Positions 40,681 through 64,000 of a DNA stretch of 64,000 nt are shown one piece after another. The stretch spans positions 434,001 through 498,000 of the forward strand of contig NW_026570287.1 in NCBI RefSeq assembly GCF_019649055.1. The letters run 5' to 3'. Position 1 is the first letter of the stretch, and each line of letters opens with the position of its first letter. This DNA is from Paramacrobiotus metropolitanus. Lineage: Eukaryota > Tardigrada > Eutardigrada > Parachela > Macrobiotidae. The notes under the pieces were generated by a model. It was not told the DNA's origin, did no database searches, and worked only from the letters and a program-made list of their open reading frames with translations. A program made the translations under genes and the position numbers.

Positions 40681-41613
40681 TAGGGCAAAGAGCTCGTGGG
40701 AAACTGCACAAATTTTGACCGTTGGCGGCGTTGCAGTCGGTGATAGCTCATCTATTTTTGGTTGTGATAGATGGTATTGTGTCTGCTCTGTTCTCTTGTA
40801 ATTTTTAATATCGCATGCAAAAAGGGCTGACCATGGGCTTTCTGAATTTACTAGGAATATTTTTATCCTGTCTTACTGTTCTTACATTTTTTTATCGTTG
40901 ATTCCTGCTTGACTTGATTGTATCGCTGTTTTTACCCAGACCTGATGTGTTTTGGGTGATGCTGATCGGAAGTGATCGGAGTTGCAGCTGTAAAAGTTGA
41001 TAAAATAATTATTGCACGACAGATCCGAACAGGGGTTTGCTTTCTCTATCTCTCTCGCAGAATCAAAAACCGGCGGCAGAAACCACGGTATAATTGTCAT
41101 AAACACTTTGATTGATGCACATTTGCGGCATTTTGAAACGCAGCCATGTTCCGTGAATCCGGAAACGCCTGCTGCGTGTTCGAGCAGCGTGGAAGAACAA
41201 TTAACAGTCGGCCTAGGGGTCTTATTATAACGCTTAGTTCTTAAGCTTGAGGTATATGTAATAAATAATTTCATTGTTTACCAAGTGCGATCGATTACTG
41301 TGGAGGAAGATATACCTGTTTTGTGTGTATTAGGCCGTGCCTAGTGCCTATCTTTTGTATACTATCAGTATCAACTGCTTCACACTTTTGATTTATGGGT
41401 ATACGCCTATAAGGTAATATTCGCATACGTACAGTATACGTTGCATCTTATACTGTAGACCGGTATTAAGTGATTAGTTATCCGACGGTTGTTGATGCGC
41501 AGCTGTGATTCAGATAATGGCGAGCGCTAAACAACTGTCAACGCCAAAAAGGGAAAGTTGTTCCCTGCGGCGTGCTTGGCGTCGTGTAGCGCAGACGCTC
41601 CTCGGATAATGCA
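40681..41613. other. DET1 3' untranslated and intergenic sequence
   Basis: No convincing coding sequence. An AATAAA at 41260-41265 is a possible DET1 poly(A) signal, about 580 bp after its stop. The promoter of modular gene A begins at the right end. Confidence 0.4.
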
Positions 41614-41621
41614 TATAAAAG
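41614..41621 (+). promoter_or_regulatory. TATA box of modular gene A
   Basis: TATAAAAG lies 94 bp before the ATG. A TCAGTC/TCAGTT initiator-like sequence lies about 20-30 bp downstream. Genes B and D have the same TATAAAAG octamer. Confidence 0.7.
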
Positions 41622-41714
41622 GTGCGGTGCAGTCGTCAGTCAGTTCGGTACAAGGTCACGTTTCGGTGATATCGGGTAGTCACATAGTATAGTTCGGAGT
41701 CGACGCTATCCACA

Positions 41715-44700
41715 ATGGCGTCTTTCCTGTTCGCCCTCACGGCCGCTGTCCTGCTGGCCTCTACCTTCACTGCTGATGCAGCGGTCATGAAAGGTGTGTC
41801 AGTGTATCAAACATCCATTTTCCTTTACAGGAGAATGTGCGACAATATCAGTGTTTCTCACCGCCTGTGTATTCAGGTACCGTTACCTGGCAGATCGATG
41901 TTACCGCTTACTTCCAATACTCATCTACCACCCAACGTACCGGCCTGCTGAACCAAATCCTGCAACTGTGGAAATCCAGCTTCGATGGTAAAAATTTGTA
42001 TACTGACGCACTACGCTGGGATGCAGAAAGATATAGCAGAAATAAATTGTTTCAGCCTCTTCCCAACTGTCCAATGAAAAGGTCACTGTTGTCAGTGACA
42101 GCGCTGTCGCCGGTTTCCCCGGATACAAGCAGGTGTCCTTCCGCATTACCGGAAACAGCCCGGCTGGTATCAATGTCCAGAGTCTGGTTACCAAATTCAT
42201 GACCATTCTGAAAGGTGCCAATATTCCCGGCGTGCAGACCACGCTTAGCAGCTCAGGAAGTGGCAGCATGTCGAACGGTGGTAGCGGACAAATTAGCATG
42301 GGTGGTGGCGGTAAGTATTAAACTCCGTATTTATGATATATGCCATGCAACCGCAACCGAAGCACATTAATACTAATTTATCTGAGGAAAATTAATTGTA
42401 CAAAATTATATAAATATTACAAATATAACCTGCATTAATAAGATAATAAATTACAATTCTTTGCCGTTGTAAATACCGGTAACGCTTTATTGTGCAATTT
42501 TTTTCAAAATAACTTTTGCAACAAATATAAAATTATTTACTTTTTTAGTGAGGCAGAGAAGTTGAAAGAACTAACAAACGCTGCTAGAAGCTGGTGAATA
42601 AAATTATTGTTTTTAACAAAGGCACCATCAACTGGGAGATCCAAGTGAACGGCCTCTTCCAGTACGCCAACAGTGCTGCACGCGACAAGATTCTTCAGCA
42701 GATCTTGGCTCTGTGGACTAAGAACTTTGGTAAATATCTCCCACTTTTGGCCATATTAACAAAATGTGTTGGGGCTTCTGTATCTAACTGTGCCATCCAA
42801 ACAGCCGGCCAAAACGGATTCAAAAACCAAAAAGTTTCCGTCGTCTCCGAAAGCGCGGGTCCCACGGGCGGCAGCAAACAGTTGACCTTTAAGATTACCG
42901 GCTCCAGCAATGCCAATGTGAATGTGCAGTCGCTGATCCAGGCTTTCATTCCCATTGTGCAGAGCGCACACATCATCGGCGTGCAGAGCATTTCCACCGA
43001 CGGAGGGGATAATGGTGGAAATGGTGACAATGGCTCGTCTAACAATGGTACGTGGTGGCGGTAATGCGTATATACGCGATAAATTAATTGATTACTATAC
43101 ATAATATGGTAAATATGATTATAAGTAAAATAAATAATTCACACTAATTAGCATTCATTTGTGGTCTTTAGATTAATTCTATTTCTAGATGCCGATTAAC
43201 GGAAATACATTTTCTGATTTATCCTTTACAGGTGCCGGTGGTTCCTTCTCCTGGAGCGGTAACAGCGTCATCACCTTCAAGACCCAGGCTGATCTTGACA
43301 AGATCCTGAATCAGATTCTGCAGCTCTGGATCAAGACATACAGTGAGAATCTGCCGAACACACAAGCACGTTTTTGTATTTTTGGCAGGAATTGGAATCT
43401 GATTTTCCTTTTAATTGTAGCCATTAATTACCACATCTCACCCGGTGCCAAGATCACCGTCGTCAGCAAACAGCCCGCCGGAGGCGGCAAATTCACCATC
43501 ACTTACAAAATCACTTATTCCGGTGACAATTCTGTAACCGAGACTGACAGCGATTTCGACAGTGTTATCGGCAATAACAATATCAACGGTGTCATTAGTA
43601 ATGGCGATGGCGGTGATAACGGAAACGGAAATAATAATGGTAATGGCGGAGGTGGCGGTTCCTTTACCTGGAACGGTAATGTCGTCGTTACGTTCAAGAC
43701 CCAGACTGACCTCGACAAAATCCTCAACCAGATTCTGCAGCTCTGGATCAAGACTTACAGTAAGTATTTTATGGGAACCTAATTAATAATATTTCAGTAA
43801 TCAGTTTATGATATCAGTGCAGAAATCGGGGAAATGGTGCGATCATGTTGAAAATTTTTGCAGCCACCCAGTACCATATCGGGTCTGGCGCAAAGATCAC
43901 CATTGTTAGCAAGCAGCCGGGAGCCAATGGTCAGTTTACCATTAATTACAAGATCACTTATAGCGGCGATAGCTCCGTCACCGAGACGGACAGCGACTTT
44001 GACAGCGTTATTGGCACGGCTGGTATCATTGGAGTCGTTATTAATGGTAATGGTGGCGATAATGGTAGCGGCAACAACAACGGTGCCGGTGGCGGTCGCT
44101 TCTCGATCCAGAATACAGTTGTTATCAAGGTTAGCAGCGCCGGTCAGATCAGTGGCTACCTGCAGAAGATCCTGGCTCTGTGGATTCAAACATACAGTAA
44201 GCCACAATATCGTTGTGTACAGATATTAATGCAAGTGCTACTCGTATAATTTTATCTGCACCGACTGCACGTGCAAATGGTAACAAACGAGTCATGGTAT
44301 ACATTTATAATTAATAAATATATTGATCTCATAGCGCGGAAGTTACTAAGTTATTCTAATAAAACTTCCGCCTGCGTTTGTAAAATTACCCGCCAAAGTA
44401 AACGAATGAAAATTATTCCAACAGGCAAGCTGTACAAAATCAGCGGACAAAAGATTGTACAGATCAGCGCCTAGTCCACCACTCCTGGCTACTTCACTGT
44501 GACCTACCAAATTACCGGCTCCAGCTCGCAGTCCATTGATGCTGACCAAAACAATGCCGACTTCAACAAGCTCATTGCCGCCGGTAAAATCATTGGCGTT
44601 TCGATCACCATTACCACGAACGGTGGAAATAATGGCGGCGGAAACTTCGCTATCAGTGAAAATCAGCAGAACGGAAAGAACGTCGGTAAGACTCTGCATA

Positions 44701-45137
44701 CCGGTATTTGGTGCTTTCCCACAGAAACAATAGTGCCTGTTGCTTTCAGGGCCCGGTAACTTCGATGTGACCTTAACCGTTTACCTGTCCTACCGCTCGG
44801 CGGCTGAGCGAGAGAATTTCCTCCAACGTTTGAGGGTCATCTGGAACAATGCTCTGAGTAAATCATAATTATTTTCAGCAAGCCAAATCAAGGGTATCAT
44901 TGTTTTTGTCCATTTGTAGATGACTACCAAGTGACGAGCCTGGCTATCAAATTCGTCAAGGAGCAGCAGAATGTCGGCACCCTGCCGAAGGATCTGGGCG
45001 GTGGCCCCGTGAACAAAGTCTGGTACCGTCTGACCGGCAGCACGGTGATGACCTTCAACACTGCCGAAGTGTCCAAGGTCTTCGAACAGACTGTTGTGGA
45101 TGCCCATCTTGGCGGTGTGGAATTCACTCTCCAGTAA
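41715..45137 (+). CDS. Modular secreted protein A: signal peptide plus six novel modules
   Basis: I know no named family for this product. Eleven exons: 41715-41793, 41877-41987, 42056-42310, 42622-42729, 42805-43047, 43232-43342, 43421-43759, 43864-44196, 44425-44685, 44750-44857 and 44920-45137. They encode about 721 residues if one internal TAG is ignored. The start is MASFLFALTAAVLLAS, a clear signal peptide ending near TADA. Six modules follow. Each first half has a strand, then a helix such as QILQLWKSSF. Each second half has KVTVVSD, a strand with ITG, and a closing IPGV-type strand, then a Gly/Asn/Ser linker. The last module (WYRLTG...GGVEFTLQ) closes the protein. Exons 7 and 8 each fuse a second half to the next first half, where gene B keeps introns. 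A TAG at 44472-44474 interrupts module 5. Mature modules have no Cys. Role unknown; extracellular by inference. Confidence 0.8.
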
Positions 45138-45856
45138 AAGCGATGATGATATCGTGAGCTTGTGCCTTGCGCTTTTAGTATTAGTTTCTGAATCATAGTG
45201 ATGGGTGAAAAGGGTTGCTAATGCTTTAATTCGGTTAGCAAAATTAATTGTCTCGCTAGCTGCCTGAGACGTTGTACGTGGTTTCTGCAGCGGTAAAATA
45301 GAAAATAATAAATCAACAGAATAATCCCAGGAAATACAACTGTATCTGTATGTAATTGCAGGTAATAAACTGCTTTAGGCTAGATGTCGCTAGACTGTTT
45401 GTTGGTATCCGGCATTTCCGGATGCTCGAATTGAAACGATGATTTGATAGGATGCCAAAACATGCCAGTGTGATAAAGCAGTTTTTATATATATTTGCCT
45501 CAAATTTTCGTGTTAAATATAGCAAACAATTTCTGAAATTTCAAAAGCCCAGGTTTTAAAGCATTTAAATTCTACTTGCATATTTTTAACAGTTCTAATA
45601 GCTAATATATAACTGAACTGGGTTATACCCAAGTAATTACGCGAAAGTTCCCAGGCACCAAAGTAAATGTCATTCATCAAACACGACGCTGAAACGTGCA
45701 GAATGTTTGATAGTCTACGTCGCACGTACAAGGTGGTCGCAGTAATTATTTTCCCAATGGGTTCATTAAAAAGTTGTGTGTCAACTTTTCGCCAGCTACT
45801 TTTCCTTCAAGGCAAGATTGACACTATACGCTTCACAGGCGATCCCGAAACATCCG
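45138..45856. other. Intergenic region between modular genes A and B
   Basis: About 0.7 kb containing the gene A 3' end and the gene B promoter. No coding sequence is evident. Confidence 0.5.
45307..45312 (+). terminator. Poly(A) signal of modular gene A
   Basis: AATAAA about 170 bp after the gene A stop codon, in AT-rich sequence. The position is typical for a 3' end. Confidence 0.45.
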
Positions 45857-45864
45857 TATAAAAG
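45857..45864 (+). promoter_or_regulatory. TATA box of modular gene B
   Basis: TATAAAAG lies 92 bp before the ATG, nearly the same spacing as in gene A (94 bp). Confidence 0.65.
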
Positions 45865-45955
45865 GATACAACGGGCCGTATCATCGAATCGTTTTACGGG
45901 TGGTCGGGGTAGTAGTTCACTTTAGAGCCGGTATCTGTTGAGACGCTTTTTCACA

Positions 45956-48900
45956 ATGGCGTCTTTTATCCTCGCGTTGGTCGCTTCGGTCCTTTCTGTC
46001 CAGGTAAGGAAGTACATCTCCACGATTTTCTAAGCGGTGCTTTCGCCAAGTCTTGCACTTCTAATTTTGACTTTTTGAGAATATCTATTATCTATTTCCG
46101 AACTTGCATTGGCAAGATACCTGCACAATAAATTAATTGTAATTAATTTGCAAGCGCTTATTTCAAGCTTAAAGAATTTAGACTAGGAGGGAGCCACACT
46201 TGGCTGAAAAAAGTATCTACATACTCTATAAATTAGTGTATTGACCTTGAAATATTTTGCTGCGGTCTGTAACTTTGCTTTAAAAGAACAGCATGACCCG
46301 CCCTGAATTCTGCAGCTACAGTCTACGCACCTAAAATGTTCCGCAGCTGTTACACACCCAAGCGTGTAGATAATACTGCTTTACATGTACCAAAGTCTAC
46401 CGTGTACTACTATATATAGTACATAAACGCATGTAGATATTGCATTTCCACAATAGCTTCCGGCGGTCCATAATTAACAGGCTCGCTCATTTCGATTGCG
46501 AACACTTATGCCGACAAAGTTTGTTCCACAAGCGGATACCTACGTATATCTACAATGTGGATTTGGTGGTGCAAACACTTTTATCGTACATTATAAAAGT
46601 GACCAACCAAAAATATGATGATGGTAAATATTAGTATTCACGACTGTGTTATTGATATGTAACTTCTCCAGTGCCTGTATGAGATGTGCATGCAGCCCAG
46701 AGATGTTTTTTATACAGGAACAGGTTTTCTATAACAAATAAACCTGGCAGAAGATATATATGAGCGTTTTAAACTTACTAATTACTTTCGCATTTATGCT
46801 CGAAATTGCCAAACCGCGGTCAAGGATGTCAGACAACAATGGCATAAACCTCAATGGTGGGCGGTGATGCACGAGTACAAAAAATGTCTTCGCGATGGTA
46901 CAGAGACTTGTCTGGCAAGCTATGCAGAACAGTCGTTGCCAAATAAGCCACCAAGGTTTTCCGTGCCAAAACTAAAGTGAGCCAGTAATTATTCCACAGA
47001 AAGTATTGCCATATGCATAAAACCAGTTTGTAATGAACGTAAAACTCGCTATATCGTATAAAACAAAATACAGTATAGAGGCCGTATTTTTAGACCTGCA
47101 AGCGATTAGAACTCGAGAATATAGCAAACTCCGAAACGAATAACGTTTGATGATATTCCTGAAGACAGTCGACATGTTATCGACGGTCACTCTATCCCAA
47201 AACCGGCTAAAAAAAGCAATTTTGTTCGACTATTTTTTTTCCAGAAAGGCTCATAATCAGGATCCTACATCGATTAATAATAAGTGAATTTACAGCCCGT
47301 GTTTTACGGTTCTATGAAAAATTTTTTGACGTGCTAGACATCGTCGGAGTAACAACACGCCGTCTTTAACATGTTTCAATACTTATGGAGCCTCCTTTTT
47401 ATGTACATTTTCATCTAAAATACTTGGTCTACGGAACTATATTATGGCTTTTTGAAACTCAAAAAACACCCATCCAAAGGACATCTTTTGGATGAAGAAT
47501 ACATGGGCGCTTTTTTCGCGAATAGAACCGGGTTAGGACACCATTGCTGAAATCTCCAACTTTAAATCTCATACAAAAAGAAAAAGTCACTACAAAGCGA
47601 CCATGCATCTTATTCTGTACTGTCTGTAGTTCTTCAATGTAAAATAGGCTGTGCGGTATACATTCCTGTTATTTAATAGGCTTCAGAATGGCAGACTTTG
47701 TGCTATATGGAATCAAAGATTGTACAAATTTGCGTACCCGCAAATTAATAATTACCTCGTGACCTTTAGGCACTGTCCGCCAATGCTGCCATGCAGCAGA
47801 CAATGTCCTTCGGCGGCATGAGCCAGAACATGGGTGGAATGGGAGGATTTTCGGCAGGTAATAAATAACGTTAGGGTGTCCCACAAAGGTTAACAGTTAC
47901 AGAACCATAACTGTTCATGGATTTGATAAACGCATTCCTGAGCTGATCAATGTCTGTTACTGTTCGAGTCATGTTATCAGTGCCGTAATTTTTTTTATGG
48001 CACACACAGGCACCGTCAGTTGGCAGGTCGATATCACCGCCTTTTTCCAGTACACCAGCGTTGCACAACGTTCCAGCATTCTCCAGCAAATTCTCAACGT
48101 CTGGAAATCAAGCTTCGACGGTACGTGGTTATTTTCGATGAGAAAATGCAGAGGTGAACTTTGGTAAAGAGCAGCTCTTAAATCAAAACGTTTTATACAG
48201 TTTCCAGCAAGCTGTCCAACGAAAAGGTCACCTTTGTCGGTGAACAGGCTGTCCCCGGATTTCCTGGCTACAAGCAAGTCTCCTTCAGGATCACCGGCCA
48301 AAGTCCGGCTGGCATCGATGTCAACAGTCTTGTTTCCCAGTTTACCACCATTCTGCAAGGCGCTAACATTCCAGGTGTGCAGACTACACTCAGCGGCAGT
48401 ACTTCGGGACAATCCGGACAGCTTAATATTGGTGGAGGCGGTGCCGGTAAGCGTTAGTTGATACTCCACTTCGAACCCGAATTGTGGTTCGCTGTTACAT
48501 TTTTAACAAAATTAATGTGTGTCCGTTTTTAACAAAAATTCAGGTCCCTGCTGAATGATAAAAACTGATCGTAACAAGTTTGTGCATAATTGTGCACAAA
48601 TTATGCATAATTATTTTTTATAAAAAATACTACAAAGGTTGTTACAATATGTCGTAACAATACCAATAGTAACACATTACAAATAGATGCAAATGCATTT
48701 AGCAACTGAAAATTTTTAATTTAGACTTGCAACGCTTATTCATTTTCTTAGGAACCATCACCGTCAACATCGATGTCCAAGCTGACCTTCAATATTCCTC
48801 CAGTGCTCAACGCGACAGCATTCTTCAACAAGTTCTTGCCTTATTTCAGTCCAAGTTCGGTAAGAAACAATCTTATTAATTCAAGCCGGTTACAAGGGAG

Positions 48901-51900
48901 AACAGACTTTCTGTAAACTTAAAATTAATATTTTCGACTTGTCTTTTAGGCAGCCAAGGGTTTAAAAACCTGAAAGTCAGCGTTGTATCTGAAACTCCAT
49001 CCGTTAATATTCCTGGAGGCAAAACCCTGAGCTTCCGTATCACCGGTCAAGCATCCGGAAACATCGATATGAACTCTATCAGTCAGCAGTTTATCCAGGT
49101 TTTATCCAGTGCGAGCATTCCCGGTCTTACCCTGACCCAGCAAACCCAACAAATTGGAGGCGGTGTTATCAGTATCCCAATTGGCGGAGGAAGTGAGTTC
49201 TCATAAAAATTAAGGAAAAGCGTTTTGGCTTTCCATGTTACCTCACACTGTAACCAGCAACATACAATATGTCAAGGTCAATTACATTTATATATTGGTG
49301 ACCACTCCGTACACACCCTTTCACACCTTTTTACTCTGTACACAACCTTTTGCACTACTTTCTTTCCGTGCACAACCTTTTTGAGCACTACCTTCTACTC
49401 CGTACACAACCATTCGGCACTACCTTTATCTGCGTGCACTACCTTTTATTTTTTTAACTTTTTTCACAGCAAAGTTATTTCCGGAACTGCCGTTTTTTCG
49501 TCAACAGCAGTTATTGCTGCATATTTCAAAGCATCATCGGCAGTTACAAAATCGAATTCCCGGGACAAAATAATTCTTTGCGCCCTTATGTGCCGGTTTT
49601 TCTTCACAGGGTTTGGACAGTGCTTTCTGAGATTGACATAGTGCAAAAGTTTTAGAGAAAATACTCCAGATTACCATAAGTACATATACATAACAGTTAT
49701 CAAAGAGCTTAAAAGTACTTATTGCAGTAAACGTTTCATAAGACTTTTACGGATCGTGGGGCTGCATCTGGATAATTCTATTCCAATATACAGTATATAG
49801 TTGGAATCCGTGGAGACAGAAATCGATTTCTGCTTTTCTTTTGTAATATACTCGTAGATTACAAGTGCATATATATATAAAACTTTGCACCGAGTGAAAG
49901 GTAGCGTGGATTGGTAGTGTATCGAGTGAAAGGTAATGTCAAAGGTTGTGCACGGAATGAAAGGTAGTGCCCGAAAAGGATGTGCACGGAATGAAAGGTA
50001 GTGCAAAAGGTTGTGTACGGAGTAAAAGGGTGTGTACGGAGTGGTCACCTTATATATTTTGCATCATAAACAAAGTACACCTCTATAAGTAAGCGCAGCC
50101 AAATTAAAAAACAGTGCTATAAATATCTAGATTAAATCTTGGTCGTAAAATATAGGTTTACAACTCTTGTTGTAGCGTAATACAATAATTTATTTTAGTT
50201 GCCGGTAAAGGTGTTATCAACTGGGAGGTCGAAGTCAGCGGTGTTTTCCAGTATGCCAACAGCGCTGCGCGCGACAAGATCCTCCAACAAATTTTGGCAC
50301 TGTGGACCAAAAACTTTGGTACGTTAATAATTACGTACCAGCAATCACTACTGCGGCATTTTTCCTAACTGGTCATAACTACAGGCGGCCAAACTGGCTT
50401 CAAGGATCAGAAGGTCACCGTTGTTTCTGAGGGATCTGGTCCCATGCCCGGCACTTGGCAGCTGGTCTTCAAGATCACCGGATCCAGCAGCCCCAATGTC
50501 GACATTCAGTCCCTGATCCAGGCATTTTCATCCCCATCCTGCAAGGCGCACAGATTGTCGGCGTGCAGAGTCTGACCCCGGTTGGACCGGATAATGGTGG
50601 CAGCAGCAGCACCATTAACGGTGGCGGAAGCACGATTATCAACGGTGGTGGCAGTGTGAATATTAATGGCGGTGGAAATGGCTACAATGGAGGAGGTAAA
50701 AGGATGGAAATATATTTAGTTCAGATATTCTTGTAACGATGGCCATGGCCAGGAGCGATACCGCGATAATGCTGACCGGCGGTGATAAGTTTGTGAAATT
50801 TTAAGAAAGTGCTGCTGAGTACTAACAGCGGAACCTTTGCAGGCGGCCAAAATGTGTTCAACGGAAACGTGGTCATTACTTTCAAGACCCAGGCAGAGCT
50901 TGACAAGATTTTGAACCAAATCTTGCAGTTGTGGATTACGACCTACTGTAAGTCTGGTGGCCTTACTGGAATATAGTATAGCTAAAGAAATTTTGCTGGG
51001 CGTGGATTACTGAAATAATAATTTGGTAGATTACTGGAAAAAATACGTAATTTTATCATTGCAGCAATCCCTGGCGCCAAGATTACGGTCGACAGCAAAA
51101 AGCCTGTCGGAAATGGAAAATTTACCATCACGTATAAAGATCACCTACACGAGCGATACTCCTGTTACTACCACACAGACTGACTTCAACAGCATTATTG
51201 GAAACAACAACATCCCTAATGTTGAGGTCCCTAATAACGGCGGCAACGGTGGTGGCCAAATTAACGGCGGTGGAGGTAAAAAATATATGGACATATCTAT
51301 ATCTATGTATATTACAATTTGGTGACAATTTTGGCCGACCTAGCTGTCGCGTACAATACAAGCTATTCTTCTACTACTCAACGTATACAAGACACTGATT
51401 GTACATCAGTAGATGTATAAGAAAACATATCTACAATCATAATATTACCAAACCGTAATATTATAATAATTATTACGGTTTAATATTAAATATTATGGCA
51501 CAATATCATATACTAGTTGTAGTTGAACTTGCACGTATAGCTGATTACATACGCACGACACTGGTACAATATCGTATAAACGACACTGGTTGTACTTACA
51601 TATTGTGCGAGGAGCGAGTGTATAGCACTATATTATATGTTTTATTCAAAGAAAAGACAAAATAATTGTCCGTATAGCCCTCTAAATAATGGACTTATTT
51701 TTACTGTAGTTACCTACAGACATTAAATAATTTAGCTAACACTAGTGCAACATTTATAATGTCAGCAGGCAACCAGCCGTTCACCTTCAATGGCAAGTTG
51801 GTCATTTCCTTCAAGGTTCAGTCTGAACTAGATAGCATTTTGAATCAGATCCTGCAGCTCTGGATCCAGACCTACTGTAAGTCCCGATTTCGCTTTGTAA

Positions 51901-54559
51901 TAAATGTAATTACAAAGCAAAATATTGAATATTTGGATATTTAGTACGAGTATCAGGCAGTATCTCAAATGGTAAAAAACCACAATGACCTTTTATAGCC
52001 ACAACCTGGAATGTGTCTCCTGGTGCCAAGATCACGGTCGTCAGCAAACAGCCAGCCGGAAACGGAAAATTCACCATCACCTACAAGATTACCGGCACCA
52101 GCGGAACCCCGGTTGACACCACCGATAACAGCTTCAACAACGTCATCAGCAACAACGCCATCAATGGTGTCGAAATCCCCAATGGTGGTGGCTCTGGTGA
52201 ACGGTGGAGGTCAGGGTTCGTCGAATGAGGGCGGCAATGATGTTAATGGAGGAGGTAACGGTAGCCATGTTAGAATAACTTTAAGGTCAACATATCCGGA
52301 TTTGAATACTGATTTTCATATTCAGGTAGTGCCACCGGTAACGGCAAACCCTTCACCATTGAAAATACCGTTGTCATCAAGACTACCAACTTGGGTAGCA
52401 TTGATACATATCTGCAAAAGATCCTCGCCTTGTGGATTCAAACCTACAGTATGTCCCGTATTTCTCTTTTAGAATAATTAATCAGAATTATTAGCAATTA
52501 TTAGAATGATTCACGCAAAGAAATTAAATGCTTTTAACCAATTAGCAACACAACATCCAGCGATCTGTAGTAGGCACAACAATTAAAGTTGTTTGTTGAT
52601 CACAAGTTGACCACCTTAGGTAAGCTGTTCAGCATCAATGGCCAGAAGATCATCCAGGTCACCGCTAGCTCTGTCAACCCGGGATCCATCACGGTCACAT
52701 ACCGCATCACCGGTTTCAGTGTGCAGTCCATTGACGTCGACCAGAACAACTCCGAATTCAACCAGCTGATTGCCAATGGAAAGGTCACCGGTGTGTCTGT
52801 ATCTGGTGGCGGCAGTTCTAATTACAATGGAGGTAAAACCGTAAAAGTGATATAAGGCACGCCACATTATTCAGCACTCGTTATGTTAAAGGTGGTTCGG
52901 CATCTGGCAACGGCCAGCAATTTTCCATTGACAACACTGTAGTTATCAAAACATCCAACGTTGGTGACATCAACGGATATCTGCAGAAGATTCTGGCATT
53001 ATGGATCCAGACCTACAGTAAGAACTACAGCGACCTATTTGCTAACTGGTGGCCTTTACCCAAAAAATCAATATTTATCAGGCAAGCTGTTTACCGTCAG
53101 CGGTCAGAAGATTGTCCAGGTGACCTCCAGCTCCGTTAATCCTGGCTATATCACCGTTACCTACCGCATTACCGGCTCCAGTGTGCAGCCTATTGATGTC
53201 GATCAAAATAACGCCGAATTTAATAAACTCATTGCCGCTGGTAAAATTATCGGCGTTTCCCTGACGGTTGGCGGTGGTAGCACGGACAACAACGGCGGTA
53301 ACAACAGTGGCAACAACGGTGGCAATTTCGCCATTAGCGAAAACCAACAGAACGGAAAGGACATCCGTAAGTGACGCGCAAATGAAAATTAATTCAGTTA
53401 CTTGTAAGTTGTATAGCTGTGTAAATTTAATTCTCGCAATACAGCGCCCGGAAACTTCGATGTGACCTTAACCGTATACCTGTCCTACCGCTCGGCGGCT
53501 GAGCGAGACAATTTCCTCCAGCGATTACTAGTTATTTGGCGAAATACCTTGAGTAAGACTTTACATTCGAGACACCAACGTCAAAAACACACAATAATAT
53601 TATGTGAAAAATTCCTTCTTTCAGATGACTACCAAGTGACCGGTTTGAAGATCAGCTTTGTCAAGGACACGTTGAACGTCGGAACACTGCCGCTTGATCT
53701 GGGTGGTGGCCCAGTCAACAAAGTTTGGTATCGTCTTACAGGAGGCACTGTTCTGTCCTTCAACACCGCCGTTGTCTCCAAAATCTTCGAACAAACAGTC
53801 GTGGATGCGCATCTTGGCGGTGTTGAATTCACGCTTGGTGGTGGTAAGAGTGTCCAAAAGGTTATCTGTCTGGGTTTCTGTATATTCTTTTTTTATTTGT
53901 AGGATCATCTGTCGGTGGCGCTGGCGCTCAAGGCAATGCCAATGCTGGCGGATCCTCATCGCAATCTCAGACACCCGAAGGAAATGGTAAGGAAAATTAT
54001 TTCGCAACCAGTTATTTATTTTTATTGCTGTACGACTTTTTAAAAACTTTTCCTATGGCATATGTATTTAGCTCATATATGTCCGTATAAATCCAACGTT
54101 GCACCGTGAACTTTGAACTTTCAATTTCCTTTTCTTTTAGTCGGAACCATGCTCGGTGGCGGCGGTGGCGCATTCAGTATTCCCGGCACTGTCAAACTGA
54201 CCTATAAAACTACTCAACAGCGTGACACCTTCTTGAACCAGATCTTTGGTTCAGTGGCGTAATGCTATCTGTACGTATAGAGCAAACTTGAATTGAATTT
54301 TCAACCATGCAGCATGCAATACAACGACTTTTATATTAAAAGCTTACGTTGTACTAATCGATTTGGATGACCTTAGGGAGCTACCAAGTGTCGGATGTAA
54401 AGATCAAGATGACCGGCGAAAGTGGCAGCGCTCCCACTAAATTGGTGTCGTACGTCATCACCGGCATCAGTGCTCTTCCGATTAACCTGGACGGAAGCCC
54501 GTAATACCTTCAAAACCACCCTGATCGAATCCCATTTGACCGGCATTCAGTATGCTTAA
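45956..54559 (+). CDS. Modular secreted protein B: signal peptide plus nine modules, frame-broken
   Basis: Exons: 45956-46003, 47770-47857, 48010-48120, 48201-48446, 48752-48859, 48950-49192, 50199-50318, 50385-50695, 50843-50947, 51065-51275, 51769-51876, 51999-52254 (or 52196), 52326-52448, 52620-52832, 52892-53017, 53082-53366, 53445-53552, 53625-53843, 53903-53986, 54141-54270 and 54377-54559. The signal peptide MASFILALVASVLSVQ continues ALSANA. A short Met/Gly-rich mature N terminus follows, then nine modules of the same bipartite type as gene A. Module order is colinear with A, plus one extra early module, one extra middle module and a terminal module like gene C's. A Gly/Ser/Gln linker exon (53903-53986) precedes the last module. 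Single-base breaks occur near 50524 (base missing), 51137, 54255 and 54496 (base extra), and possibly 52197. The first leads to TGA at 50573-50575. The gene is either decaying or misassembled. Confidence 0.72.
46457..46980 (+). CDS. Possible nested small gene in intron 1 of gene B
   Basis: I do not recognise this product. Two exons, 46457-46623 and 46751-46980 (TGA stop), join in phase (donor GATG/GTAAAT, acceptor CTGGCAG/AAGAT). The joined frame is open for about 130 codons and contains FDCEHLCRQ, DIYERFKLTNYFRIYARNCQ, WHKPQWWAVMHEYKKC and GTETCLASYAEQ. Five Cys and several Trp suggest a folded, helical and possibly secreted domain. The first exon begins after an acceptor-like TTCCACAATAG, so an upstream exon with the start codon is missing. 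Candidates in 46004-46456 were not clear. It could be a decayed gene. Confidence 0.4.
49288..49296. repeat. Left 9-bp target site duplication
   Basis: TTATATATT directly precedes the foldback element and is repeated exactly at 50050-50058 after it. Confidence 0.8.
49297..50049. mobile_element. Foldback/MITE transposon, Mutator-like (9-bp TSD)
   Basis: A 753-bp element in a gene B intron. It starts GGTGACCACTCCGTACACAC and ends with the inverse complement GTGTGTACGGAGTGGTCACC. The terminal arms extend to roughly 49455 and from 49890. They are built from tandem units of about 30 bp of the type CACAACCTTTTGCACTACC, inverted in the right arm as GGTAGTGCAAAAGGTTGTG. It is flanked by perfect TTATATATT duplications. 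A 9-bp duplication and long terminal inverted repeats fit Mutator-like (MULE) nonautonomous elements. No transposase frame is inside. Confidence 0.85.
50050..50058. repeat. Right 9-bp target site duplication
   Basis: TTATATATT, identical to 49288-49296 on the other side of the element. Confidence 0.8.
51450..51481. repeat. 11-bp inverted repeat in a gene B intron
   Basis: AAACCGTAATA at 51450-51460 is complementary to TATTACGGTTT at 51471-51481 with a 10-base AT loop. It lies in the intron between 51275 and 51769. Confidence 0.6.
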
Positions 54560-55516
54560 TCTTCACAGTGTGTTTTACGCAGTGGTGTTTTCAATAGTTT
54601 GAACATGGCCTTTTTACGACTTTTCTGTCTCTTCTTTTCTTGCTATGCTTTTAAATTTTAATGAGACTCGTAGATCTTGAAATGCAGTTACTTGTGTAGG
54701 CAGTGTCGCTGGATGCCTACGGTAGATGGTGATGGTCTTGACTTTTCAAATCTAAATCGTATTCCAAAATTCTAATCCAAAATCCACTGCCATTGTTTTA
54801 TGAATTAAACAGAGCCGGTTAGTACTTTTGATGTCGTAAAGTGCCCCAACGATCAGCTAATGCCGCAATATACCCTAACATACAGCAAGCAGCAAGGTGT
54901 AAATTCTCGTTCATCTTCATTTGTCTCGAGAAGTCAATCGTTACTCTAATGCGCGGAATTGGATCAGCGCACAAACCGTTATAGGTGCTATTGTGGTATT
55001 ATTACGTTTGGCAAATTTTGAGTTTTAGTTTATTAGATACCGTTAGAATTACGATTATACATTTAGTTTGCAAGATATTAACGCATTCTTCATGATGCCA
55101 AATTGCACACGTGACCGGTTCCTAAATTAAAGAAGCGAGAACGAAGTCCTCGCACTAGTCACCACGCCCGCGTAATGTCAAATGAGAATTTTTTAAATGT
55201 ACGTAATGAACTTTACAGATTCATGGCAACGGACGGTCGAACGCGCTCTTGCAAGTCTATTATAAATCATACAATGAATGCGGGTGTGGTGAGAACAAAA
55301 TATTCATCAATTTTGAATGTGGTTTTACCGATACACAAATAATGTGCCGATCATTTTTGAACTTCCGCATTGAAAGTTTTAAATTTTCTTGCTTGATATG
55401 CAACGCTTCCACCTTAGAGTATTGTGGAAGTAAACACCTTTTGACTAGTTAAGCTGCCTGAATACCGACGGATTTCCCTGTCGTCAAAATATTTCACTCG
55501 AACAGAGTTCTTCACA
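54560..55516. other. Intergenic region between modular genes B and C
   Basis: About 1 kb. It contains a Cys-rich open frame at 55249-55452 (+) without a clear start context or splice partner. No TATAAAAG precedes gene C, unlike genes A, B and D. Confidence 0.4.
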
Positions 55517-56121
55517 ATGATGCTTCTTGTCCTCTTTATCACCCTAATGACCGGCACATATTGTACTTCTTATAGAATCTCCAGTACAGCGAAATTACTT
55601 TATGATTCGACTGGCGAACGGGATACGCTGCTCAATCAAATTCTGGCTGCATGGTTGTCCGCAATTTGTAAGTTCAAATATTTCGAAGATACTTATCTGC
55701 AGCGGTACCACATGGTGATACTCGTGTTACACGCAGTTTTCCACAATCACTCGGAAACTGCTGTGCCACTGTTGCATGGAAGTGACCTTTGTAAAAAGTT
55801 ATTCAGAACCAAAAGTAATGATGTTTTTTAATGTACTACGTCAGCACGCCTGCTTTCTCCTTCGATTTCAGCTAAATCACTATCTGCTGCTTGGGCTAGT
55901 CACACTTTATAGTGGTTTCTTAACGCTTGAAAATGTCAGGGCCATATAGGATATCCGACGGCAAACTGCACATTACTGGGGAACGCCAGGATGGATCAGC
56001 TAATCTGGTTTCGTACGATGTGGTCGGCAATAGTCAGGACACAATCGATATGGACGACGCACGGGACAACTTCAGAACAAATCTTTTCGAGGCCCATATC
56101 CCTGGTGTGATTTTTGCGTGA
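55517..56121 (+). CDS. Modular secreted protein C: signal peptide plus one module
   Basis: Two exons, 55517-55667 and 55940-56121 (TGA stop), give 110 residues. The start MMLLVLFITLMTGTYC is signal-peptide-like. The first-half helix is ERDTLLNQILAAWLSAI, with the family Trp. The second half begins at a phase-1 junction making Trp (T+GG), exactly as in the last exon of gene B. It reads YRISDGKLHITGE, LVSYDVVGN, ARDNF and IPGVIFA. It therefore corresponds to the terminal module of gene B standing alone. The frame is intact. It could be a solo-module paralogue or a remnant of a larger copy whose other modules were lost. Confidence 0.65.
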
Positions 56122-56264
56122 TCCTGGTTAATTTGGTAAAACATTGCCATTGAGTGCACTTCTTCCTTTTAACCGTATTACCGAGAGGTGCGCGCTTGTT
56201 TTACATGTACATTTATAATGTAACATATATATAGAAGCGCAATAATTGTATACCTGCTCTTTGT

Positions 56265-56270
56265 AATAAA
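56265..56270 (+). terminator. Poly(A) signal of modular gene C
   Basis: AATAAA 144 bp after the gene C stop, in AT-rich sequence. Confidence 0.4.
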
Positions 56271-58412
56271 AATTCGCCGTTCACCATTAATATAGCGTCA
56301 TAATATTTAAGGATACGCAGAAGATGAAGGAATCTAGCTTTTAGGATGGCAAAGCAGTTGATGTGCAAATAATAATAAAGGGTGAAATCCATTGTGAAGG
56401 ATGCATTACGAAGCAGTGTCAAATAGTAGTTTTCCAGACTCCGCGCTGTTGGACAAATGAGCGTCATCCTTTAGTGCTTATTCGAATTATTTGCTTTATT
56501 GCTTATACTGTAATACTCGAAAATTATAATTAACAGTAGTACTAGTTGCATATGTTAGAGACAGTCGCCAAACTTTTTAACCTTTCGTAACTTCTATATT
56601 TGGCATTATCAAGTAAATTGGACACGGCCATCCATTCTGGATCATATTCGTATAAATAAGTAGCTCCTGTATTGTACATGCAGATTTATGTACATATCTC
56701 TACTGTAACGTGTGCATGTCTGGCAGGCAGAATACATAGCTAGACATTTTTATTACTGCCTATATATTTACGGAAAAGGCGCAAGTCTCAGCTTTTTTCT
56801 TTACAGCTTTGCAGTGCAAATATTGTTTCGACGTAAGTACGATCTTGAAAACGATTTAGATTTTAAAATACTTTTGTTCGTGGAACATTATATCGAAGTA
56901 TAATGGTATTAATGTTTTGTAACATTACAATCTAAAGTTGCACCGGAAAAATGTGCACCAACTAAAAATGTTTTCTACGCATGTATCGTGTTTGTTTTGG
57001 TTCAGCATGTCCAGACAGTCCAGATGAGTACAGTAATATTTTTACTGCCGATCAAAGAAAGGGCTCCATTTTTATTGTCACCTTTCCCATATGCAAAATC
57101 ATCTGTTATTACATTTATGGACATCGATGTCTGGTCTTCAGACGATCAGCTGCACAGGTATAATACTTAGCCAGCAGTGAAAGCTTCTTGGGAAGCCACG
57201 CAGCTGATTAGCCACGTACACTAATGCTGTTTTTATTTGTGAATGATTGGTAGATTGATCGCTGTCGCTAGAAAAAACTCCTGAATGCAACTGTAGGTAA
57301 AAAAATAAGCCGAAAGAAGAATGCCAAAAAAACATGATTGATCTGCAACAGGTGTGGTTGCACAAAATTCAACGAATGACACGTCATAAGTAGCAAAGAA
57401 GCTTATAAGCTGTAGTCTGTAGTCTATACTACAGATATATAAATCTTAAAATTAATGTGCTAAAGTACATCGGCAGACTGCACAAAACATGTGTATTATT
57501 ATGCGATATTGATTTCAGATGTTTATACAAATACAATTACAGTACCTTCTGATCGATTTGAAGGATGCTGAAGTGGATGCCACATAATGATATTATTACA
57601 TTAGGCTTCGACAGCCACTTAAAACAGTTGACGCAAAAATGACATAATTTAATCGATAATTCATAGTATCTTTTTCGCTTATACCTACAATGCATTAATA
57701 AAACTGGGGAAAAAACAAGAGTCGGCAACTTATCAAATTCTGCAAACACGTTATATTAGGCCGAACTCGTATGTTTTTTGCAAAATACACATTTGCTCAC
57801 AGTTCACAGAAGTTGTGCAAAACATCTGCGGGTATAATCTTATGTTAGCGGACATAATTCTGTATACATACAAACTGCAGGAATAATATTTACTGTAAAG
57901 GAAGCCAGCAACAAAGTACGTCGCAGAGTCTCACCGTAATTATAAATCAAAACAAACGCAACAATAATATTTATGTTGTTGGCAATCTACTTGTACATAG
58001 ATTCTGGAGAGAAGTTTATACTCGCAACATGATAAATTTTCAGAACTGCACTCCGGATTAATAGAGTAACGATAAAATCACAGTTTGTGGTTTAGATAAT
58101 TGTGCATTATTCAAAATGAAATAAAATGAGGAGTATTACTCAGCAAAGTCTATAGCCCCAAGACAGATGGCGTAATTCAATGTATATACAATTTTAATTA
58201 GAGTTTTCAGAATACTAAGACTTTAGCCAACATCGGGATTTAACCAAGCCTATATTTTTTTATGTCCGTCAATAGGCCATTATAGGCTTTCTGAAAAAGT
58301 GCGTTATAATGCTCACAAAAGAAGCAAGTTGCACCAGCCACCAGGCACCTTCTTTACTGCGGCTGGCGACGAGTATATGGTCGGCGCCCGAGGCGGAAGA
58401 AGCGATCCACCC
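56271..58412. other. Intergenic region between modular genes C and D
   Basis: About 2.1 kb of AT-rich sequence. No splice-supported or family-like coding sequence on either strand. Confidence 0.5.
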
Positions 58413-58420
58413 TATAAAAG
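58413..58420 (+). promoter_or_regulatory. TATA box of modular gene D
   Basis: TATAAAAG in the context CCCTATAAAAGGGC, 167 bp before the ATG. The longer leader compared with genes A and B could contain a small 5' untranslated extension. Confidence 0.65.
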
Positions 58421-58586
58421 GGCTAACCAGCCGTATGGGTGGCGATTCTAGTGCTTGATTTCATGCTCAGCTGTTGTTTTCGTTGTCCTGTCAACGGAAC
58501 TCGGCGGTGGTGGAGGATCGACTGTGATTGTGGTGGTGCGCCTGACTCGTAGGAACGGAAGCTAAGAATTCCCGCTTGTGGTGACC

Positions 58587-61500
58587 ATGGTTTCCGTGCT
58601 CCTCGTCCTGTGTGCTGCGGCACTGTTCCAGGTGTGTTAAATAATTTTTACACTAGAGGCGTTCCGATTTCTGAAGAAACATTACGGTAGAACATGCTAT
58701 TTCACCCGGCGTATGTATATATATCGACAAAATAATTAGGAACTGAAAAGTTTTGCTGAATAGATATGTTATAAATAATCATATTTTAAAAAGAGAAACA
58801 TACGCTGTATTTTCTAAAGGGGATAAAGTTTAGATCACAGATTTGTCAAAACTTTAAAAAATTTTATCTATGCCAAAAAGCGATAGGTTTAATGTGAAAG
58901 CATAAAAGTTTTCAGTTACTGCACCGATGCTGATGCATATTCCAAATTTTCTGCGACATTATGCAGCGGTATTATTGTTAGACAGTTTCAGATGCGCAGT
59001 ACAGTAACGGTGACCTTACTATACAAATGGGTTGGGCAGAAAAAATGCTGAAAGCGAAAGGGTGGCAAACATATGTTTGACGGAAGGCTTTGTCAATCAA
59101 TGGCGGTAGCATTTCCCCGACACGTGAAAAATACAGCGTTGTCTACGGTAATATACAACATGTTCAAAGTGCTGTCTAGGTATTGTTCAGAGCTTATTAT
59201 TATCCAACAACGAAATACTTCTTGGGTCGTAAATTTTCTGACTCTTAATGGGCTAATAAAGCACCAGTCACTTAAAATCGCTAGTCAAGAGATGACTAAT
59301 GAACTGACCTTGAAACTGCGGTCACAAACAGTTTTTAACTTTTGGCAAGTCATTTCGGCTTTTGCTATTAAAATCTCAATGAATTATATTCATGCGGTTT
59401 GTCGGACAGCCAAAAATTCTGCAAGGCAGTTGGGTGTCTGGCAGAGTCACAAAAGTATTACTCTTGTGCATACGTTTGTGCTGTACAATAACAAACAATT
59501 TTTATTTTAGCTATCTACAGCTTTACCATCCAAGTCCAGGCTAATTTTGCGTATACATCCAACGCTGAGCGCGACAGCCTGTTGCAGCAGATACTCGCCC
59601 TCTTCCAGAAAACTTACTGTAATTGCCGATTAATAACTGAATTCTCATAAGAAAACAAAAGCTTTATATTTTAAATACTTATCGTGGCTTATGATAATTT
59701 TTCGTTAATTGTTAATTGTGCAGCTAGCCATGGACTGTCCAACCTGAAGATCGCTGTCGATTCCGAAGCCGGATCCGGTCTGCCCGGCATGAAACTATTG
59801 ACGTTCCACATCACCGGTGACAGTAGCGATCAGATCGACTCTAGCAGCATTTCCACCGAATTCATCACGACCATCCAGGGCGCCAACATTCCCGGCATTT
59901 CCTTCGAAACCACGTCCACGGATGCGTCCGTTGAAACGTCAACGGAAGTCACGGTCAACGGTGGCGATAATTCGAACGGTGGTGATAATACTAACACCAA
60001 CAACAACGTTAATATTAACGTCAACGGCGGTGGAGCTGGTATGCAGTGCAATTGCATGGCTTCTTCTTTTTATCTTAAGGCTTCTATCTCAATAATTCTG
60101 TTAATAATTTTAATAGTTCGCAATAATTCTTAATAACTCATTTCTTAATTCCAAATAGTAGAAAATAATAGTATAATATTAATTCTTACGATTCTTAATG
60201 ATATTTCTCCCTTCACACCCTGATTACTTTCTTCTGTATTCGGCGTATCCTTGTAGGAGGAAATCCTTTCACTATCCGCGGCACTGTTACCATCACTTTC
60301 ACTTCCGACAGCCAACTGAATCAGATTCTGCAGCAAATCCTGAGCCTCTGGATTAAGACATACGGTAATCGAAAATGATCGCCCACAACTGGAACGCACA
60401 TAATCGTAACAATTTGGTCGGCAGGCTCACAGTTTGGAGTGGACAGTGGAAAGGTCAAAATCAATGTTGCATCGAAAGTCCCCAATGGTAGCGGCGGCTA
60501 CACCGTTACCTTCACCATTACCGGCACCAGCACGTCAACGGTCGATGTCACATCCAACATCACCGACTTCTTGACAATTATTGCCAATGCACACATCAAC
60601 GGAGTTGTTACCGGCACCATTTCAGGTAATTGAATTGAAGATCTGGCGTGCTTCATTGGATCAAAAAATTTATTTAAACAACGTACTGGAACTATTGACA
60701 GCGAACTGCCGTTAGGGACTTCATTTTGGATTTAATATTAACTCATGTATTTTTTCGTTGAAGGTCGTCTGCAGTGGACCATTACCATTGACGGACTGTT
60801 CTCATATGGTTCTCCCAGCGAACGCGACAATCTGCTCCAGACCATCTTGAACCTGTGGATGTCTAACTTCGGTATGCAGAGCTTACAGTTTATGGAGTAA
60901 ATATTTTATTTTGTACTCATTTGACTGCTCATCCATACAGCTGTCGCAAAATTTGGTCAATGCAGCTCGTTCAAAAATGCCGCTTTGAAATTGCGTATTC
61001 TCTTATTGCCTTTTGCACCCGGACTGTGCTGTTATATCCATCGCCTCGACGCTTTTTTGATAACAGCCATATGCGATGAATTGTCTAACGTAGATATTTT
61101 TGTTCCAGGGTTCCCGAACAAATTCACCGATGAGAAATCCAGCGTTACCCGCGAAACCGACAGTGGCCGCGGTCCCCGTACTCACCACGTGACCTTCCAG
61201 ATCACCGGCATCACCGGCGCTGACATCGACATTCAGGCCATGATCAACGCTTTCATCTCACTTCTCCAGGGCGCACACATCCCCGGCATTGAACAGATTG
61301 AAGGTTCATCCGCTACCGGGCTTCTTCCCAACGGTGGAACTGGAATTGTCGGCGGTAAGAGCTGACTTCATCGCTTTTATCGAAATGCCGATACTCGTAT
61401 ACTAATAAAACTCTCATCTTGTAATGTCAAATTTGTTTAGGTCCTACTTCTTTCACAATTACGGCCATGTCACCGTTAAGTACAACGTGAAATCTGAGTT

Positions 61501-64000
61501 GGATCGAATTCTGCAGGCCATTCTTAAACTCTGGATCCAGAAATATGGTAAATTAAAAGAACTCCATCGTAACAATTATTACTTTGTGGTTAGAAGTCAT
61601 TTATTAATCAGCGAGAAATAAATACCGTACACGTGCTGGCACTTCATAACTCGATTTTTTTCGTAGCAGTAAATTATTTTGCTTACATAAGTTTAACTCT
61701 CACGCAGTCATTTCGGCAGTGGCAAATCCCTATAAATTAAAAAAATTAATGACAGCTGCTGATGATTAGGTTCTCGATACGGAGCAACCAATGTCAAGAT
61801 CGTGGTGAGCAGTTCTCGTCCTACCGGCAAAGGAACCTATGACGTCACATATACCATCACCGGCACCAGCAGCGTGACCATCAATATCAACGTAATCAGC
61901 AACGAATTCCAGACTACAGTTTCCAGTTCGAAAATCACCGGAATAGTTATTGGTGGTGGAAGCAGTGTTACCGACGGTGGTAATGGAAGTGGTGAAGGAA
62001 GCGGAGAAATTACAGTCACTGACAACGGCGGTGGACCAGGTAGAGTCAGAATTTGTCCAATGGCGATGTACAGATTCCCCAAGCTCATACAAATGTCGAT
62101 AGGCGGCAAAAACACGTTCACTTACACCGGTAAAGTTACCGTCACCGTAACGAGCGATAGCGACTTGAGAGGACTTATCCAAGCCATTCTGAAACTGTGG
62201 ATCCAGAAATACGGTAAATTTAATTTTATGCACTCGCATTTCAAAGCCAGTTTTTCTTACTTAAAAGAAGAAAATTACTGAATTCAAATCCCTATGCTAC
62301 CAGGATCAACCTACGGCATCGGTAACATTTCCATCAAGATCACATCCAAAGTCTCCAACGGCAGCGGTGGATGGATCATCACCTACGTCATCACCGGATC
62401 CAGCAGCAAAGTTGTCACCATTAACAAAATCCAGGGCGAATGGACCATTACCATCACAACTTCCCAGATTCCCGGAATAACGGTGGAAGGCGAAACCAGC
62501 ACCCCCGTATCCGGCGAAGACACCACCCCGGGAACCGGCGAAGACACGACAACACCGGCAACTCCAGGTGGCGAAGAGACTCCCGCCCCGGGCGGTGAAG
62601 ATACCACGACACCGGCAACTCCTGGTGGTGAGGAGACTCCCACCCCGGGTGGCGACGTAACCCCCGCCCCGGGCGGAGAAGACACCACAACCCCTGCCAC
62701 TCCTGGCGGCGAAGAGACCCCCGCCCCGGGCGGTGAAGACACCACTCCTGCTACTCCAGGTGGCGAAGAGACGCCCGCCCCGGGTGGCGAAGACACGACA
62801 ACACCGGCTACTCCTGGCGGCGAAGAGACTCCCGCCCCGGGCGGTGAAGACACCACGACACCGGCTACTCCAGGTGGTGAGGAGACCCCCGCTCCTGGAG
62901 GTGAAGACACCACAACTCCTGCTACTCCAGGTGGCGAAGAGACGCCCGCCCCGGGTGGCGAAGACACGACAACACCGGCTACTCCTGGCGGTGAAGAAAC
63001 TCCGGCCCCGGGTGGCGAAGACACCACTCCCGGAACAGATGCAGGCTCTCCGACTCCGCCTAACAGCAACGAAGAGGGTGGAAGCACTCCAGGCGGTGGT
63101 GGCGAAATTACTATTAACGGCAATGGTGGCGGCGAAGGTACATAAAAATTCGCATATAAAAATATATTTAAAACTTATGACGGTCATCATGGAATCTTTG
63201 CAGGTGGCGACAAGACATTCGATCTTACTGGTAAAATCACGGTCACCATTACCACTGATGCCGACTTGCGCGCTTTCCTCCAGGCCATTCTTAATTTATG
63301 GATCCAGAAATACGGTAATAGTTTAATCCTATTCCAGTTAAGTACCACATGTATTATTACATTCACAATTCTAGGTTCGATCTATGGTATCGGGAATATT
63401 TCCATTAAGATCACGTCCAAAGTACCAAATCCCACCGGATCGGGCTGGATTATCTCGTACGAAATTACCGGCAGCAGCAGCACCACCGTCACCATCGACA
63501 CCATTAAGGGAGAATGGAATGGCATCATCGATAACTCGGGCATTGATGGAGTGGTTATTGGTACCGGCACTATCACCATCGAGGGTGGCAACACAGGCGA
63601 AGGTGGCGGCGAAGGCGAAATTAGCATCGAAGGCAATGGTGGCGGTTCAGGTAATGATTACATATATATGTCCATAAATGTACATAAATTATATACCTGT
63701 ATATATTTATTTGTACCGACTGTACGTGGTTAAACATAACTGGTTATAATCGGCTGTTTCTGTAGGTGGTGACAATAAATTTGATCTCACTGGCAAAATC
63801 ACTGTCACGGTTACCACTGACGCTGATTTACGCACTCTTCTCCAAGCCATTCTGAATCTGTGGATCGAGAAATACGGTACATTTTGAATCGTTAATTAAA
63901 TCGAAACAAGCGAACCATCCGGCGTTTTGCATTCTCTGATTCTAGGATCAACCTACGGCATCGGAAGCATTACCATTAAGATCACATCCAAAGTACCAAA
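58587..64000 (+). CDS. Modular secreted protein D: at least seven modules, runs off the window
   Basis: Exons: 58587-58631 (MVSVLLVLCAAALFQ, signal peptide; ACCATGG start), 59511-59618, 59724-60038, 60257-60364, 60425-60625, 60764-60871, 61109-61354, 61441-61547, 61770-62039, 62103-62213, 62304-63137, 63204-63314, 63375-63650, 63766-63876 and 63946 to the window end. By phase and by comparison with gene B, a short exon is missing between 58632 and 59510. Modules have the same two-exon plan. First halves read like TFTYTGKVTVTVTSDSDL then AILKLWIQKYG. Second halves read like NVKIVVSS, VTYTITGTSS and ITGIVIGGG. Modules 5-7 share the GSxYGIGxxxIKITSKV opening. Exon 62304-63137 is enlarged by a Pro/Thr/Glu-rich repeat. 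Exon 61441-61547 is one base short, breaking the frame near 61464. Mature modules lack Cys. Confidence 0.75.
59073..59510 (+). other. Long open frame in gene D intron 1, status unclear
   Basis: A 145-codon open frame ending just before the first module exon. The translation (for example NMFKVLSRYCSEL, MNYIHAVCRTAKNSARQ) matches nothing I know. The segment VCRTAKNSARQLGVW loosely recalls NCQTAVKDVRQQWH in the possible nested gene of gene B's intron 1. It could be a decayed relative or chance. No splice pattern supports it. Confidence 0.2.
62537..63033 (+). repeat. 57-bp coding tandem repeat, Pro/Thr/Glu-rich
   Basis: Eight units of the type GGEDTTTPATPGGEETPAP lie in one exon of gene D. They include one 54-bp unit (one Thr fewer) and one unit with an inserted GGDVTPAP. 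Third-position differences between copies show that the array is not perfectly homogenised. The product is an acidic, Pro/Thr-rich linker between modules 5 and 6, a likely O-glycosylation target by composition. Confidence 0.9.

Follow-up and report, generated by a model that had tools for sequence, protein, structure and literature searches.

Tandem module genes at the locus

The window analysed here is a stretch of 64,000 nucleotides of the tardigrade Paramacrobiotus metropolitanus (C67:434001-498000, where C67 is contig NW_026570287.1; positions given without a contig are those of the window), within a searched genome of 169.8 Mb in 533 contigs. From position 41715 to its end, the window holds four neighbouring genes on the plus strand (A, B, C and D), all built from one module of ~97 residues. 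Using profile hidden Markov models (HMMs) of the two module halves and a threshold of at least 25 bits, 23 first halves and 22 second halves were found between positions 41001 and 64000, while 50 dinucleotide shuffles of the same interval gave no match of 15 bits or more (top score 12.0); as the profiles were derived from these and related modules, the shuffles test only chance. A preliminary description of this DNA had counted at least 23 copies in four plus-strand genes, and the half-module search confirmed both the total and its distribution, namely six modules in A, nine in B, one in C and, within the window, seven in D, where at least 7 had been given. Gene D amounts to 10 modules when the contig is followed past the window, D7 being cut by the window end and three further modules lying at C67:498001-500100. 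The genes and their parts are the following:

41715..45137, plus strand: gene A, predicted signal peptide and six modules with Gly/Asn-rich linkers, with a stop directly after module 6
41614..41622, plus strand: TATAAAAGG, ~100 nt upstream of the gene A ATG
41715..41793, plus strand: gene A first exon, MASFLFALTAAVLLASTFTADAAVMK (starts MASFLFALTAAVLLAS), signal-peptide-like, phase-1 donor
45956..54559, plus strand: gene B, nine modules, with frame breaks in B3, B4, the B5 linker and B9
45956..46003, plus strand: putative gene B first exon, MASFILALVASVLSVQ, phase-0 donor GTAAGG
47770..47857, plus strand: putative gene B second exon, ALSANAAMQQTMSFGGMSQNMGGMGGFSAG, linker-like
55517..56121, plus strand: gene C, predicted signal peptide and one module resembling B9
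58587..64000, plus strand: gene D, 5' part, seven first halves in the window and a frame break in D4
58587..58631, plus strand: putative gene D first exon, MVSVLLVLCAAALFQ, phase-0 donor
62492..63139, plus strand: mucin-like linker between gene D modules 5 and 6, 216 residues (T 24%, P 19%, G 23% and E 14%)

The first halves begin at 41888, 42633, 43246, 43663, 44100 and 44761 in gene A, at 48021, 48769, 50222, 50860, 51780, 52352, 52921, 53456 and 54173 in gene B, and at 59522, 60268, 60775, 61463, 62117, 63218 and 63780 in gene D. Each gene had been credited with its own signal peptide, and signal-peptide-like first exons were indeed found in all four, that of gene C at 55517 (MMLLVLFITLMTGTYC). 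However, these exons were called by hydrophobicity and a splice-donor heuristic, not by SignalP; that of gene B was chosen among four candidates by its resemblance to that of gene A, and that of gene D is out of phase. Moreover, TATAAAAGG precedes the start codons of genes A, B and D (~100, 99 and 174 nt upstream, respectively), while gene C carries only TATAAATCA, at -256.

Of the 23 window copies of the module, 22 have a donor-like phase-1 GT where helix 1 ends, the exception being B9 with its frame break at this point, and 21 have a phase-matched acceptor ahead of the second half. The scan considered phase 1 only, and the intron is predicted from sequence. The module had been described as having two exons, which agrees with these sites; related modules on contigs C13, C52 and C53, however, include single-exon ones. 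The linkers combine Gly with Asn or Ser in genes A and B, whereas those of gene D, and those of further genes on contig C23 (E and F, see below), are rich in Thr, Pro and Glu. In particular, the linker between modules 5 and 6 of gene D contains a 57-nt tandem repeat.

A set of 27 modules was spliced and aligned, comprising 17 of the 23 window copies, seven of the 12 from one C23 locus (L001) and the three D modules beyond the window; those omitted were A5 (stop), B3, B4, B9 and D4 (frame breaks), D7 (cut), E5, E7 and E10-E12. Mean pairwise identity was 31%, and conservation is highest at positions of Leu, Trp, Phe, Gly and Thr. Cysteine was found at none of the 2640 residues of this set, as the term cysteine-free in the preliminary description would have it, but two terminal-type modules on C23 have one Cys each in strand 2, so the absence of cysteine is a strong tendency and no rule.

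Fourteen paralogue pairs were chosen for the ratio of non-synonymous to synonymous substitution rates (dN/dS, Nei-Gojobori). In the 12 with a computable dS the ratio varied from 0.08 to 0.36 (0.14 for A6-B8 and 0.15 for A1-B1), values that are approximate since dS exceeds 1 in most pairs; dS was saturated in the other two, whose ratios of uncorrected proportions (pN/pS) were 0.32 and 0.16. These values point to purifying selection on the protein sequence of the module, gene B pairs included.

Several copies are interrupted, a feature absent from the preliminary description. An in-frame TAG occurs at 44472 in module A5, and frame breaks were located in gene B (B3 at ~50.53 kb, B4 at 51.14 kb, the B5 linker at 52.19 kb, and B9 at 54.25 and 54.50 kb), in gene D (D4, 61.46 kb) and on C23 (E7 and E10). 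The reading continues in another frame past the breaks in B3, B4, the B5 linker, B9 and D4. The published assembly is described as built with Canu from Nanopore reads, with nanopolish and Pilon used for polishing (PMC8277472), and because of this origin the frame breaks may plausibly be indel errors of the kind expected in paralogous repeats; recent decay may instead account for those in gene B. Furthermore, an element of ~750 bp lies within a gene B intron (49297-50049), flanked by inverted repeats of ~120-150 bp that consist of 30-bp sub-repeats, and it looks like a foldback element or one of the miniature inverted-repeat transposable element type.

Searches for a named family

None of the 23 modules matched a Pfam-A family above its curated cut-off, a match that the preliminary description had named as grounds for refutation. 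The best match was ParB_C (E 0.00017, 21.4 bits against a cut-off of 23.8), found in four of the 23 modules and covering only residues 6-25, which correspond to helix 1; it was taken as chance. The same was concluded for the weak and scattered matches to MlaC (3 of 23 modules, best E 0.01), Med20, thiol cytolysin, xylanase D and carnitine palmitoyltransferase. In NCBIfam, nine families were matched, each by one or two of the 23 modules, with no credible match among them (best E 0.0018, PRK11627), and the PDB sequences likewise gave weak matches only, none of them credible. No arthropod cuticle family (RR, CPAP or others) appeared among the 15 families matching any of the 23 modules, where the modules and not the whole genes were scanned. 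Moreover, no account of the module family was found in the listed literature, mostly non-subscription papers, on the tardigrade secretome, cuticle, egg and eggshell proteins or the SEA domain. The module family thus appears to be unnamed within the Pfam, NCBIfam and PDB sequence libraries searched. The earlier statement that no known family fits holds at this level, but the predicted fold is ferredoxin-like and near that of SEA domains.

Predicted fold of the module

The AlphaFold2 query was the open frame of module A2 (42630..42998, plus strand), read through the predicted intron, which appears as an insert. The model had a mean predicted local distance difference test (pLDDT) score of 83.7, with 74 of its 123 residues at or above 90; low values were found mainly in the ten-residue blocks 31-60, which hold the insert and average 50-67. 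Its elements are a strand (2-11), a helix (15-34), a short helix within the insert (40-45), two strands (65-76 and 82-92), a helix (99-113) and a last strand (118-122). The module core is thereby predicted to be a ferredoxin-like beta-alpha-beta-beta-alpha-beta fold, with a four-stranded sheet and two helices.

Structural comparison of the A2 model with VIA-align, in which rows no more than one Z unit apart were treated as ties, gave human mitochondrial PheRS (Z 9.0 over 86 residues), Nup54 (8.4 over 85) and ribosomal S6 (8.0 over 81), together with SEA domains, namely MUC16 SEA5 (8.3 over 94), a mouse MUC16-like SEA (8.2 over 95) and a TMPRSS SEA (2e7v, 7.6 over 88). Overall, the MUC16 SEA domains scored between 7.8 and 8.3 across 90-95 residues. 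Among the 50 rows shown, the longest alignments were those of SEA domains (94, 95 and 95 residues), and SEA was the only family recognised as extracellular. A first model, of module D6 (mean pLDDT 69.8), has its core elements in the same order; the top Foldseek rows for it were Bet v 1-like, and those of VIA-align a mix headed by channel and PheRS domains. It was dropped for the A2 model, as its intron-derived insert forms a hairpin that draws the Bet v 1-like matches, while the A2 insert is mostly disordered. An alignment of halves, with a single full-length row, was misaligned and left unused.

Family members elsewhere in the genome

A total of 44 first halves were found in the genome: 23 in the window, three in gene D beyond it, 12 and 5 on contig C23 and one on contig C85. 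The 17 on C23 make up two or three genes, named E and F. A distant branch of the module was found on C13, C52 and C53 and on C67 just downstream of gene D, and it matched the 27-module alignment in hhalign with a probability of 97.1% (pairwise E 6.2e-11). On C67, open frames carrying this branch lie at 502000-509000 (E 3e-8 in locus L014, weaker in L003). Several of its members are single-exon; in others the reading changes frame past helix 1, which suggests an intron at that point. A Pfam scan of two of the branch's long open frames gave no match, and the C13 region has Cys-rich EGF-like stretches, where the EGF model matched under its cut-off.

A maximum-likelihood tree was built from 31 modules, that is, the 27 and four of gene F. 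The first modules A1, B1, E1 and F1 grouped together (support 86/89), as did B2, D1, E2 and F2 (84/76), both under the 95/80 mark, while the last or next-to-last modules A6, B8, D10 and F4 formed a group with 100/99. Expansion of the middle within single genes was seen in B6 and B7 (100/100), A3 and A4 (100/96), D5, D6 and D8 (100/98), and E3, E6, E8 and E9 (99/95). The order of the modules has been largely but not strictly kept, as no first-type module is present in gene D and A2 groups with D3 (98/84). The simplest reading of the tree, which we infer, is that an ancestral multi-module gene was duplicated and spread to two contigs, and that its middle was amplified later.

On C85 (C85:463500-473400, locus L013, 5851-7201), an astacin protease exon lies ~0.6 kb upstream of the single copy, a terminal-type module, on the same strand, and the two may form one gene. 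Next to the second cluster, on C23:20000-26999 (locus L006, 1636-4326), an open frame encodes 897 residues that include a reverse-transcriptase domain (PF00078), and a piece resembling its C-terminal part is also found on C13 (L004). Upstream of gene A, the neighbours in the window are ATP-citrate lyase (29602-33726, minus strand; PF16114, PF00549 and PF00285), a DET1 homologue (39380-39934, plus strand; PF09737) and a frame at 11382-11870 (minus strand) with a ZIC-type zinc finger match under its cut-off.

A secreted structural family as the favoured explanation

Taken together, genes A-D probably encode secreted multi-module structural proteins of P. metropolitanus, forming an SEA-like mucin or matrix family. 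This explanation draws on the half-module counts of 23 and 22 against none in the shuffles, the gene anatomy and splice sites, the cysteine content and composition, the dN/dS values, the A2 model with its MUC16 and TMPRSS SEA rows, the Thr/Pro-rich linkers of gene D and C23, the module types that recur across genes in the tree, and TATAAAAGG before genes A, B and D. The modules would fold as disulphide-free ferredoxin-like beads, near SEA in shape and mostly lacking the self-cleavage motif, and would serve as rigid spacers strung on flexible linkers, those of gene D (and of E and F) being probably O-glycosylated. Such bead-and-linker proteins could build a mucin-like or matrix layer, as a cuticle coat, an egg envelope or gland mucus. 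At the two ends, the conserved modules of the first and last types may have a part in assembly or secretion, leaving the middle free to expand.

Several points weigh against this explanation. The SEA rows (Z 7.6-8.3) are tied with the unrelated ferredoxin-like folds of PheRS, Nup54 and S6; neither the A2 nor the D6 model had a Foldseek match at E <= 0.001, and no SEA domain appeared among the 50 VIA-align rows shown for D6. The module alignment compared by hhalign with a single SEA sequence and with a six-row SEA alignment (three rows partial) reached probabilities of 0.1-0.4% only. The introns and signal peptides of A-D are predictions, and the phase-0 donor of the gene D first exon faces a phase-1 acceptor in D1, so that the gene D model is without an exon. 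Furthermore, the dN/dS values are approximate, and the frame breaks in B and D and the TAG in A imply that some copies may be dead. The O-glycosylation is read from composition alone, and the role of these proteins, whether cuticle, egg-shell, adhesive or matrix, is what we infer from their build.

The relationship of the module to SEA domains can be read in two further, rival ways. There is a fair chance that it is a new extracellular domain family that has converged on the ferredoxin-like fold, given the lack of any credible sequence tie to the libraries searched, the commonness of ferredoxin-like folds and the distant second branch in the same genome, whose hhalign match indicates a history of the family's own. 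Against such convergence, the SEA-like shape and the mucin-like context jointly favour a link with SEA.

That link would be closest if the module were by descent a true, though very divergent, SEA domain and the proteins were tardigrade mucins proper, which we regard as possible but doubtful. The order of the structural elements is the same, MUC16 SEA accounts for the longest alignments in the 50 rows shown, and a Gly stands at the turn between strands 2 and 3, the site of the SEA cleavage Gly, in 22 of the 27 modules; the Thr/Pro linkers and the C85 terminal-type module lying downstream of an astacin exon point the same way. However, Pfam SEA (PF01390) was absent from the 23 modules scanned at E <= 10, a range in which HMMER filters discard most matches above ~0.1, while Pfam does recognise two SEA exons in the same genome (C33:119309-119584 and C44:516383-516658), which are 79% alike and have GSVVV and GGVVV, respectively, at the cleavage site. 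Common descent is also disfavoured by the hhalign probabilities, that of the distant branch against SEA being 0.4%. The GSxxV motif, described as confined to self-cleaving SEA domains (PMC9478142), was found in only two of the 27 modules (B6 GSITV and E4 GSFVV), and the strict form GS[VI][VI]V in none. Though not filed as an SEA domain, the module may act as an SEA-type spacer, and since its predicted fold is ferredoxin-like and near SEA, it could represent a modified form of an extracellular bead of known type.

As regards the role, it seems unlikely that A-D encode not matrix proteins but soluble secreted ones with a binding or enzymatic function, such as effectors of immunity, digestion or glands. 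Tandem expansion and sequence spread are known from immune families and an astacin exon lies near the C85 module, but the conserved residues (Leu, Trp, Phe, Gly and Thr) are not catalytic-looking and the linkers are repetitive and of low complexity. Equally speculative, and to be held with as little confidence, is a tardigrade-specific extracellular polymer family that is independent of SEA and largely disulphide-free, with rigid beads, silk-like conserved ends and an expandable middle of gel or mucin linkers, possibly suited to a coat that has to withstand drying. Decay of the cluster into pseudogenes, in part or as a whole, is the least probable alternative, since the five frame breaks in B, the one in D, the TAG in A and those in E7 and E10 stand against low dN/dS between A and B copies (A6-B8 and A1-B1), retained splice sites and TATA boxes, and the small indels to be expected in paralogous repeats of a Nanopore assembly.

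The module, with ~44 copies in this genome and no credible match in the family libraries searched, gives a testable candidate, and presumably little is known of the proteins that make up the coats and egg shells of tardigrades. The family also bears on the origin of SEA-like mucin beads, because a Cys-poor, intron-split and multi-copy form shares its genome with two Pfam-recognised SEA exons.

Comparison with known systems

Among known systems, SEA domains (PF01390; MUC1, MUC16, agrin and TMPRSS11) resemble the module in the predicted beta-alpha-beta-beta-alpha-beta fold of ~100 residues, in their occurrence in secreted-type proteins with Thr/Pro-rich stretches and in the Gly at the strand 2-3 turn. 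They differ from it in that the module has neither a Pfam nor a profile match, rarely has GSxxV, shows in its sequences a shorter link between strand 1 and helix 1, carries a predicted internal phase-1 intron and is present in up to 10 copies (gene D). The ferredoxin-like domain of Nup54 (PDB 5c2u) shares the fold (Z 8.4 over 85 residues), whereas Nup54 is an intracellular protein of the nuclear pore; to judge by a title, Pei and Grishin (2017) reportedly tied it to divergent SEA domains. The C-terminal domain of PheRS and ribosomal S6 are likewise similar in fold (best rows Z 9.0 and 8.0, respectively), but they are cytosolic or organellar and their sequences are unlike that of the module. 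Finally, spidroins recall the module tree in having conserved end modules and an amplified middle; the ends of spidroins are helical bundles.

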